Shown piece after piece: positions 61,660 through 63,752 of a stretch of 64,000 nucleotides of DNA. Position numbers and translations under genes: made by a program. The DNA lies in the NCBI RefSeq assembly GCF_019443965.1, contig NZ_CP040814.1, positions 248,001-312,000 of the forward strand, read 5' to 3'. The stretch is from Salinibacterium sp. M195. GTDB taxonomy: Bacteria; Actinomycetota; Actinomycetes; Actinomycetales; Microbacteriaceae. Numbering within the stretch: the stretch's first letter is position 1; every line of letters starts with the position of its first letter. Below the pieces are notes generated by a model, which was given only the letters and a program-made list of their open reading frames with translations, was not told where the DNA came from and searched no databases.

Positions 61660-62022
61660 TTAACGCCCAGCGAGAATACGGCGCAGGGTTTCGGCTTCTT
61701 CGCTCGAGACTTGGCCGACGAATCGTTCGAGCACTGCCGCGCGATCGCTTGCCCCTCCGAGCACTTCGTGCATGAGGTCGGCCATGTGGGATTCACGACC
61801 GGCTGCGGCGCGGTACCGGTGGGGTCGGGTGTCGCGTTCTCGCATCACGAAGTTCTTCTTTTCGAGCCGCGAGAGCACCGTGAGGATTGTGGTCGCTGCC
61901 AGCTCTCGGCCAGCGCCCTCGGGGCCGGCGAGCTTGGCTTGGAGGTCGTAGGCCGACAGGCTTTCGACGCTCGCCCACAACAGATCCATCACGCTGCGTT
62001 CAAGTTCACCGAGGGAGTTCAT
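61660..62022 (-). CDS. blaI: BlaI/MecI/CopY family repressor
   Basis: 120 residues. Winged helix LGELERSVMDLLWASVESLS, ATTILTVLSRLEKKNFVMRE and RAAAGRESHMADLMHEVLGG are family features. TAGAAT lies six bases before the ATG, giving a leaderless start, and overlaps the first TTCTAC half-site of a long operator array. It is coupled to the M56 protease and divergent from cydA, so it probably represses both directions. Confidence 0.9.
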   Translation of the reverse strand: MNSLGELERSVMDLLWASVESLSAYDLQAKLAGPEGAGRELAATTILTVLSRLEKKNFVMRERDTRPHRYRAAAGRESHMADLMHEVLGGASDRAAVLERFVGQVSSEEAETLRRILAGR

Positions 62023-62028
62023 GCGGCA

Positions 62029-62034
62029 ATTCTA
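62029..62034 (-). promoter_or_regulatory. -10 box of blaI (TAGAAT)
   Basis: Minus-strand TAGAAT six bases before ATG 62022. It overlaps the half-site at 62030-62035, so binding there would block the promoter. Confidence 0.55.
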
Positions 62035-62101
62035 CCCTAAGTAGAAATAATTTCTACGAGGGTGTAGAAATATAGGTAACGGATTTCTACTGCACGTAGA
62101 A
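62030..62101. promoter_or_regulatory. Array of six alternating BlaI-type half-sites
   Basis: TTCTAC 62030, GTAGAA 62041, TTCTAC 62052, GTAGAA 62064, TTCTAC 62085 and GTAGAA 62096. Successive starts are 11, 11, 12, 21 and 11 bases apart and orientation alternates throughout. GTAGAAAT-A-ATTTCTAC (62041-62057) is a perfect palindrome. The array fills the blaI-cydA interval and includes the blaI -10 box. It fits cooperative binding of BlaI dimers on one face of the helix. Confidence 0.8.
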
Positions 62102-62153
62102 CATGCCTTGCCGCATCCGGAGAAGTCAGAGCAGCATCGAGGAAAGGCCTGGA

Positions 62154-63752
62154 GTGGACCCCCTAGAAATCGCCAGATGGCAATTCGGAGTCACCACCGT
62201 TTACCACTTCATCATGGTCCCGCTCACGATCGGCCTCGGTCCGGTCGTTGCGCTCATGCAAACCCAGTGGGTGCGCACCGGCGACGAGAAGTGGCTGCGC
62301 ATGACCAAGTTCTGGGGCAAGTTGTACCTCATCAACTTCATCATGGGCGTGGCAACAGGCCTGGTTCAGGAGTTCCAATTCGGCATGGCGTGGAGTGAGT
62401 ACTCTCGCTTCGTCGGTGATGTCTTCGGCGCTCCCCTCGCTATGGAAGGCCTGCTCGCCTTCTTCTTCGAATCCGTCTTCCTCGGCCTCTGGATCTTCGG
62501 CTGGAGCCGCCTCCCCAAGAAGGTCCACCTCGCAACTCTCTGGATCGCTGTCGCCGGCTCCATCGTTTCTGCGTTCTTCATCATCGTGGCCAACTCGTGG
62601 ATGCAGCACCCGGTTGGCGTCGAACTCATCGACGGTCGCCCGGTCATGACCGACATCTGGGCCGTGCTCACCAACAACACCGCCCTCACTGCCTACGCCC
62701 ACACCATCACCGGCGCGCTAGCCGTTGGTGCTGGCTTCGTCGTCGGCATCTCGTGGTACCAGCTGTGGCAGCGTCGTCGCGATGGAATCGACTCCGTGGA
62801 TGCCAAGGGCCGGGTCGTCGTCGGCGAGAACGCCAGCATCCCTGGCCGCGATCGCAAAGATCACTCGGTCTGGATCACGAGCATCCGCATCGGCGCCGTC
62901 ATCGCCATCCTCGGATTCGGTGGAGTCGCTATCACCGGTGACCTTCAGGCGAAGCTCATGTTTGAGCAGCAGCCGCTGAAGATGGCAGCTGCTGAGGGTG
63001 CCTGTCACGACGGCACAAGCTTCTCGGTGCTGTCGATCGGAAACCTCGGCTCCGAGAATTGTGAAGATGTCGTCGCGATTATCGAGATCCCCGGCATTCT
63101 CTCGTTCCTCGCTCACGGTGACTTCGACACCAACATCAAGGGTGTCAACACGCTGATTCCCGAGTACCAAGCGCTTTACGGCACGAACCTTCCGGATGAC
63201 CCGCTGTACGGCGAGCGCGCCGGCATGGAGATCAACTACCTGCCGATCATGGAGGTCACCTATTGGGGCTTCCGCCTCATGATCGGGTTCGGGATGCTCG
63301 CGGCCGGCTTCGCGCTTCTCACCCTGTGGATCGTTCGCAAGGGCACGGTTCCGCGGTCGAAGTTCCTCATGGGAACGGCGCTGCTCAGCATCGCGGCTCC
63401 CTTCGGGGCCAACATTGCCGGCTGGGTTTTCACCGAGATGGGTCGTCAGCCGTTCGTGGTTGCCCCCAACCCGACCCCCGGTGGCGTCGACGGTGTCTTC
63501 ATGTTCACCGCCGCAGCGGTTTCGCCAGGAGTGAGCGGTGAAGAGATCATCTTCTCGCTTGCCGCCCTCGCTCTGGTCTATGCCTTCTTGATCGTCTTCG
63601 AGGTGAAGTTGCTCGTGAAGTATGTGCGCGGTGGTGTCGCCTCAGCGATGCCCGAGCTCGGGCATCCCGACGGCGAAGGCTACGACGAGAACGACCCCGA
63701 CGATCCCCACCGACCAGACCGACGCGACGACGTTCTCGCGTTCGCCTACTAA
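62154..63752 (+). CDS. cydA: Cytochrome bd ubiquinol oxidase subunit I
   Basis: 533 residues from GTG 62154, which has GAGGAAAGG upstream and gives the family start (DPLEIARWQFGVTTVYHFIM). The His of VYHFIMVPLTIGLG binds heme b595, and EFQFGMAWSEYSRFVGDVFG and FFFESVFLGLWIFGW carry heme-region acidic residues. GRQPFVVAPNPTPG replaces the usual GRQPW loop. The Q-loop is short. CydAB reduces oxygen to water with quinol in the membrane at low oxygen. It probably lies under BlaI control. Confidence 0.95.
   Translation: MDPLEIARWQFGVTTVYHFIMVPLTIGLGPVVALMQTQWVRTGDEKWLRMTKFWGKLYLINFIMGVATGLVQEFQFGMAWSEYSRFVGDVFGAPLAMEGLLAFFFESVFLGLWIFGWSRLPKKVHLATLWIAVAGSIVSAFFIIVANSWMQHPVGVELIDGRPVMTDIWAVLTNNTALTAYAHTITGALAVGAGFVVGISWYQLWQRRRDGIDSVDAKGRVVVGENASIPGRDRKDHSVWITSIRIGAVIAILGFGGVAITGDLQAKLMFEQQPLKMAAAEGACHDGTSFSVLSIGNLGSENCEDVVAIIEIPGILSFLAHGDFDTNIKGVNTLIPEYQALYGTNLPDDPLYGERAGMEINYLPIMEVTYWGFRLMIGFGMLAAGFALLTLWIVRKGTVPRSKFLMGTALLSIAAPFGANIAGWVFTEMGRQPFVVAPNPTPGGVDGVFMFTAAAVSPGVSGEEIIFSLAALALVYAFLIVFEVKLLVKYVRGGVASAMPELGHPDGEGYDENDPDDPHRPDRRDDVLAFAY

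Follow-up and report, generated by a model that had tools for sequence, protein, structure and literature searches.

The BlaI repressor family is best known for the control of penicillin resistance. In staphylococci, the repressor BlaI or MecI acts together with an M56 metalloprotease, BlaR1 or MecR1, from a divergent operator region, and BlaR1 carries an extracellular penicillin-binding sensor. Here we analyze a pair of this family, blaI and an M56 gene, in a 64,000-nucleotide (nt) stretch of Salinibacterium sp. M195 (assembly GCF_019443965.1, contig NZ_CP040814.1, positions 248,001 to 312,000; hereafter the window), where the pair lies divergent to cydA-cydB, the genes of cytochrome bd oxidase. 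Unlike the staphylococcal systems, this one has a 278-amino-acid (aa) M56 protein in which no sensor was found, and its target is a respiratory oxidase. Our reading is that the 131-bp intergenic region (62023–62153) is a divergent promoter region with a BlaI operator of three units, that BlaI represses both blaI-M56 and cyd, and that M56 cuts BlaI upon respiratory failure. We assign this reading a probability of about 0.83.

Several elements of such a circuit have been described in other bacteria. In Clostridium thermocellum, BlaI_0696 recognizes inverted GTCTAT repeats five nt apart, according to DNA affinity purification sequencing (DAP-seq) and to electrophoretic mobility shift assays (EMSA) on single sites (PMC8457756). 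BlaI_0696 and BlaI_1845 resemble the present case in that inverted repeats stand in ordered pairs upstream of an autoregulated operon; they differ in half-sites (GTCTAT/GACTAT) and in targets, which are signalling and possible wall genes, and the word cytochrome was not found in the accessible text of that paper (PMC8457756). CopY and CopR are homologous winged-helix repressors whose operator, RNYKACANNTGTMRNY, often occurs in two copies, mostly 24–39 bases apart (PMC7253601). It shares the YKAC/GTMR core with the sites described here, yet its half-sites are one base closer together (KAC-N4-GTM versus KAC-N5-GTM). CopY and CopR sense copper via CxC, a motif present in 0 of 157 distinct cyd-linked BlaI proteins; the window's BlaI has no cysteine and compares with TIGR02698 at 26.5 vs 121.95 bits, and a role for it as a copper sensor was rejected. 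The closest solved structure is that of Mycobacterium tuberculosis BlaI (2g9w; Rv1846c, with M56 protein Rv1845c), for which the Rv1303-ATP synthase operon is a reported target (PMC12565901, PMC5874750). In that organism blaI is not beside cydA and the half-sites are TACKAC instead of TTCTAC, while the protein falls inside a clade whose genomes carry sites at cydA. The ordered pairs of repeats at an autoregulated BlaI operon and the mycobacterial link between BlaI and ATP synthase are thus already known from these papers. No paper linking BlaI to cytochrome bd control was found in searches of an open-access library; subscription papers, including the original one on M. tuberculosis BlaI, were outside the search.

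The original prediction, made from the letters of the window, described six GTAGAA/TTCTAC half-sites between blaI and cydA. These start at 62030, 62041, 62052, 62064, 62085 and 62096, with spacings of 11, 11, 12, 21 and 11, exactly as described and far beyond chance. The whole window has 17 such half-sites, and the 11 outside the array never exceed one per 72 bp. Shuffling the intergenic region 20,000 times with dinucleotides preserved gave at most 2 half-sites and not a single TTCTAC-N5/6-GTAGAA. The array is more aptly described as a 17–18 bp palindrome, TTCTAC-N5/6-GTAGAA, in three copies. Among 44 distinct intergenics that came from BlaI protein searches, TTCTAC and the GTAGAA that follows it are always separated by a gap of 5 (72 times) or 6 (17 times), whereas the gap from GTAGAA to the next TTCTAC ranges from 2 to 551. 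Because only the former arrangement has a fixed gap, GTAGAA-N5-TTCTAC, which had been proposed as the operator unit, was read inside out and is the gap between units. The end of the proposed extent, 62022..62154, also has to be moved, since the array stops at 62101 and 62154 is the GTG of cydA. From base composition, about 0.06 exact TTCTAC-N5-GTAGAA are expected in the 3.04-Mb genome, and none with 0–1 mismatch occurs outside the array's two; the N6 form was not searched genome-wide. A larger regulon in this genome was rejected on that N5 search, which found sites at the cyd-blaI region only.

Among 19 divergent loci of the same genus, unit 1 is present in all, unit 2 in 15, always with N6, and the third, cydA-proximal unit in 16. 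Later units begin 22–23, 44–46 or 55 bp after the first, and therefore follow a roughly 11-bp grid. The placement of all sites on one helical face, also part of the original prediction, holds in this sense within the genus, though not as a general rule outside it: the commonest distances between palindrome centres are 24 and 25 bp over the 160 distinct intergenics from all searches. The only promoter-like pair in 61900–62300 is on the minus strand, TAGAAA-16-TAGAAT. Units 1 and 2 lie over this predicted blaI promoter, and its −10 box (TAGAAT, 62034–62029) falls within unit 1, as had been predicted. Since the box ends 6 nt 5′ of the start codon, the blaI mRNA is probably leaderless. The same distance of 6–7 nt is seen in 20 of 21 loci examined. 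TAGAAT near the blaI start is a local feature, found in just 25 of the 160 distinct intergenics across all lineages.

The control of cydAB by BlaI, which the original prediction put forward, is strongly supported by comparison across genomes, namely by the conservation of the sites, by their dependence on BlaI, and by their presence at unlinked cydA genes. BlaI and CydA were searched in the same 60 relatives, of which 33 and 53, respectively, gave a match, and the sites were defined as T[AT]C[GT]AC-N5/6-GT[AC]G[AT]A. Sites lie 5′ of cydA in 31 of the 32 relatives whose BlaI is linked or orthologous (28 of the 29 divergent pairs that the BlaI search gave, together with genomes G043, G024 and G053), and 0 of 21 relatives without blaI adjoining cydA carry a site in the 400–500 bp upstream (Fisher p ~1e-13 for 30/31 vs 0/21, prior to the addition of G053). 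One of these 21, G037, has weaker unlinked BlaI-family matches. The pair in G043 is divergent with sites present; blaI and cydA of G024 are on different contigs with sites at both; and in G053 blaI comes last in the cyd operon, with two sites 5′ of cydA. In a set drawn at class level, a site is present in 16 of the 18 distinct divergent pairs, and three of these intergenics also belong to the first set. Three members of the same genus (G003, G007, G013; loci L061, L057, L056) have a cydA 70–75% identical, no BlaI match and no operators upstream, and constitute natural test cases for the circuit.

The half-sites vary in step with the repressor. Families f38 and f45, which belong to the class as well, keep the divergent blaI-cydA arrangement with half-site TACKAC and gap N5, and at least one site was found in 21 of 21 intergenics of this type that were fetched (20 chosen by adjacency, and G043). 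The recognition helix reads TTVLTVL or TTVHTVL with TTCTAC and TTVMTV with TACKAC, so that one position covaries, Leu or His with the former and Met with the latter. The Frankia-type BlaI of family f36 has Leu at this position and TTCTAC sites. The window's BlaI, whose named close relatives are from Salinibacterium and Rhodoglobus, matches PF03965 over residues 4–118 at 74.8 bits, above the curated cut-off of 22.6, and shows the trait of that family, inverted-repeat operators at its own promoter (three units, two of them over the predicted blaI promoter).

The motif can also be followed without reference to any protein. When public species genomes were scanned for pairs of palindromes in tandem, at least 120 loci were obtained, of which 103 have a cydA start within 450 bp, 98 a BlaI match (tblastn) within 600 bp, and 92 both; Pfam adds four BlaI-family genes, to make 102. 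As the scan used the motif alone, the motif leads to cydA and BlaI-family genes unasked. Among the scan matches listed, 11 loci have sites at cydA with no BlaI match beside them; five of their genomes were tested, all five carry a strong BlaI match elsewhere, and three of these unlinked blaI genes have their own TTCTAC site. Seven of the at least 120 loci have neither cydA nor a BlaI-family gene nearby (L078, L093, L098, L119, L144, L153, L159), part of their open reading frames (ORFs) having been scanned. At L159 the tandem site is 8 bp from a cytochrome b gene. Tandem TTCTAC palindromes also stand beside distant BlaI-family genes at L072, L086, L136 (Aurantimicrobium), L080, L092, L127, L175, L177 and L186.

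In mycobacteria-like genomes (family f22), whose BlaI clade includes that of M. tuberculosis (tree support 100/98), blaI is far from cydA. Six of the 24 genomes with a BlaI match were tested. They have 1–7 TACKAC-N5-GTMGTA sites each, one of which is just 5′ of cydA in all six and just 5′ of the unlinked blaI in five. In two of the six the sites do not exceed a reversed control (5 vs 6 in G061, 1 vs 2 in G185). Also in G061, a site (L392) lies 237 bp 5′ of an ATP-synthase-I-chain gene resembling Rv1303 (25.0 bits, cut-off 25.1), likely its ortholog; Rv1303, with which a BlaI target operon is reported to begin (PMC12565901), thus has a likely counterpart with the motif upstream in one of the six. 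The other f22 sites are mixed, and several are at genes without a clear respiratory role (glyoxalase-like, MOSC, LuxE, antitoxin, DUF3817, DUF4383, cyclase), and our claims for f22 are limited to cydA, blaI and the Rv1303-like gene. Two f22 genomes share a TACKAC palindrome 5′ of the DUF3817 gene (L379, L388) and another at a long ORF (L374, L387), the L374 copy of which has no Pfam match. On plasmids of Gordonia and Tsukamurella, blaI-M56 is near a GuaB1-type gene, as in the neighbourhood of Rv1845c-Rv1846c; the Tsukamurella record has a site 5′ of blaI, and the Gordonia one has none. In Mycobacterium smegmatis, cyanide is reported to raise cydA 388-fold, and mutation of both Crp sites in an aa3 mutant leaves a 7.3-fold induction (PMC7739888). 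In copper-limited medium, sigC-deleted M. tuberculosis is reported to have cytochrome bd and ATP synthase transcripts above the parent (PMC7924339), in line with, though not proof of, a signal from failing heme-copper respiration.

In 137 of 139 distinct divergent loci with a downstream stretch of 1.1 kb or more, an M56 gene is next to blaI. HEXXH and the distal Glu (H182, E183, H186, E223) are invariant in 35 of 35 M56 proteins. The window's protein scores 22 bits with PF05569, below the cut-off of 31, and 33.7 with M48 (cut-off 20.3). The original prediction had called it sensor-less, and a Pfam scan indeed detects no penicillin-binding domain in its 278 aa; 151 of 161 relatives are 240–359 aa long. 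A cysteine in AYC[LI]PG, 30 residues before HEXXH, is found in 141 of 142 cyd-linked M56 proteins and in 1 of 6 M56-like genes beside other BlaI paralogs. If the protein resembles M48/M56 folds, this strand would border the active site, and Cys152 could therefore act as a cysteine switch. The same genome has a second BlaI-family gene (G000:C1:2230762-2231085, L211), whose M56-like partner has AYSLP instead of AYCLP.

In the proposed mechanism, BlaI dimers would bind the TTCTAC-N5/6-GTAGAA palindromes and shut their own blaI-M56 operon through units 1 and 2 on the predicted promoter, and from the shared array BlaI would also repress the cydA-cydB operon. Failure of the main heme-copper oxidase branch, for which nitric oxide (NO), cyanide, and loss of copper or heme are candidate triggers, would activate the membrane protease M56, which would then cut BlaI. 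This cleavage would open the cyd genes, and the lost autorepression would let the switch reset. While control of cydAB through the array sites is strongly supported by the genome comparisons, we infer binding by BlaI, repression, and proteolysis by M56; the nature of the signal and the role of Cys152 are conjecture.

The sites of other lineages extend beyond cyd. In family f6, 14 of 17 genomes have sites, with counts that are lower bounds: 5′ of HemQ in at least 9 genomes, of flavohemoglobin in at least 4, and of YceI and HemE in at least 2 each, and in G348 at CopC and two thioredoxin-like genes. At least 55 sites occur in f6 loci, 39 labelled by tblastn and 16 not. Two of the 16 are at HemE, and Pfam names neighbours of others as CopC, two thioredoxin-like proteins (one genome), Crp family, sucC-like, ABC ATPase and pyridoxamine-oxidase-like; the remaining unlabelled sites have neighbours with no Pfam name. 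A flavohemoglobin site is also present in G250, and a site at separate cydDC genes in G242. In f36 genomes there are sites at HemE (G144), at CopC (G286) and also at genes without a respiratory role. G162 has a second site beside long ORFs without a Pfam match. The presence of genes for heme synthesis, flavohemoglobin, thioredoxin-like proteins and copper in this wider set leans toward a signal that comes from respiration or from heme-copper. As predicted targets, an oxidase free of copper, an NO dioxygenase, and genes that supply heme and handle copper would fit failing heme-copper respiration. We offer only tentatively, and at less than even odds, a wider proposal, in which the BlaI-M56 pair of Actinomycetes would originally be a switch for respiratory failure and not for beta-lactams. 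M56, a sensor-less membrane zinc protease whose lineage-specific cysteine precedes the active site, would detect a blocked heme-copper oxidase (by NO, cyanide, or lack of copper or heme) and free cytochrome bd, together in some lineages with genes for heme synthesis, flavohemoglobin, thioredoxin-like proteins and copper. In mycobacteria this circuit would later have been recruited to control beta-lactamase and ATP synthase. At L279, L356 and L360 the f6 flavohemoglobin site adjoins, or is close to, an Rrf2 (NsrR-like) gene, which suggests two layers of NO control. Plasmids of Kocuria rosea (NZ_CP127859.1, L393) and Dietzia kunjamensis (pDK313-98, L394) carry cydAB-blaI-M56 with operators, and the module may therefore move between species; on the latter, a cydC-annotated gene of cydDC size has its own site.

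The pair might instead answer cell-wall or beta-lactam stress as in staphylococci, cytochrome bd being raised within an envelope response. The family and its M56-like partner agree with this, as do the description of M. tuberculosis BlaI, a member of the f22 clade, as a beta-lactamase repressor (PMC7924339) and the reported increase of beta-lactam sensitivity upon BlaI overexpression (PMC12565901). A peptidoglycan endopeptidase gene follows M56 on the Kocuria plasmid, and scan locus L144, in another phylum, has its sites at a beta-lactamase-family gene, with no BlaI found there. Nevertheless, the five neighbouring genes that were scanned include no beta-lactamase, M56 matches no penicillin-binding domain, and in f6 the sites away from cyd belong to genes for heme, flavohemoglobin, thioredoxin-like proteins and copper and not to recognized wall genes, several neighbours being unnamed; we consider an envelope signal unlikely. 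It is far less probable that the sites serve blaI-M56 autoregulation alone, with cydA a passive neighbour under its own control. Although units 1 and 2 do cover the predicted blaI promoter and three genus members (G001, G010, G020) are without the cydA-proximal unit, cydA also has sites in genomes with blaI in another place, and so do separate cydDC genes. Binding of the palindromes by another regulator, such as NsrR, Rex or Crp, with BlaI incidental, is hardly to be expected and slightly less so still. The Rrf2 genes near some flavohemoglobin sites would suit it; against it stand the absence of sites in the 21 relatives mentioned above, where no ortholog is linked, the half-site letters that follow the BlaI recognition helix, the tandem sites flanking distant BlaI-family genes in other bacteria, and the reported BlaI motifs of like shape (PMC8457756).

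Repression of cyd by BlaI with release by M56 remains the reading that we prefer, and a number of observations weigh against it. No cydA promoter is callable in 61900–62300, and the direction of repression rests on the overlap with the blaI promoter. The missing cydA-proximal units count here as well, as do G042, the exception among the 29 divergent pairs, with a weaker site only; the Frankia-like G144, with no site in its 608-bp intergenic; two Nesterenkonia among the five unlinked blaI genes and one of the six f22 blaI genes, without an exact site of their own; and the distant BlaI of Aurantimicrobium, which has Ile at the covarying helix position with tandem TTCTAC sites. BlaI and MecI are cleaved at Asn-Phe in the dimerisation region; in the corresponding region here Phe is invariant (14/14), and the residue before it is mostly Arg, not Asn. 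The published targets of M. tuberculosis BlaI are not known to include cydA. In M. smegmatis, the main cydA regulators are reported to be Crp1 and SigF, and a suspected extra element is far upstream and not at the position of the f22 site (PMC7739888).

Cytochrome bd helps actinobacteria, and mycobacteria among them, to withstand low oxygen, NO, cyanide and drugs that act on respiration. The induction of its genes is only partly understood, and the BlaI-M56 pair, given the sites directly at cydA, is a tangible candidate for the control that is missing. As judged from the sites, the BlaI family appears to control this backup oxidase here and in many actinobacteria, relatives of M. tuberculosis included, and what it responds to may be failing respiration and not an antibiotic. 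If true, a family known from antibiotic resistance would be recast as a respiratory sensor, which is testable by simple genetics.

Table 1. Features of the blaI-cydA region, in window coordinates.
Feature	Position	Strand	Remarks
M56/M48-like metalloprotease, 278 aa	60821..61657	-	HEXXH at 182-186, Glu223, Cys152
blaI, 120-aa BlaI/MecI/CopY-family winged-helix repressor	61660..62022	-	PF03965, E 9.4e-21; without cysteine
Predicted blaI -10 box, TAGAAT	62029..62034	-	6 nt 5′ of blaI start codon
Operator unit 1, TTCTAC-N5-GTAGAA	62030..62046	.	holds predicted blaI -10 box
Operator unit 2, TTCTAC-N6-GTAGAA	62052..62069	.	left half overlaps predicted blaI -35
Operator unit 3, TTCTAC-N5-GTAGAA	62085..62101	.	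cydA-proximal, 52 bp 5′ of cydA start codon
Likely cydA ribosome-binding site, AGGAAAGG	62140..62147	+	sequence
cydA, cytochrome bd oxidase subunit I, GTG start	62154..63752	+	PF01654, E 3.1e-149 from residue 6
cydB (runs off window)	63771..63998	+	PF02322

For cydA, the ORF list begins at an upstream ATG (62103); the GTG at 62154 is preferred, as homologs align from residue 1. In the genome, a 1106-aa ORF directly 3′ of cydB is taken, by analogy, as a fused cydDC. A 247-aa ORF at 60081–60824, adjoining the M56 gene, matched no Pfam or NCBIfam family. Farther away in the window, the ORF at 56275–56937 has a C-terminal Thr-Asp repeat tail (TDTDTDTDLDTDS).

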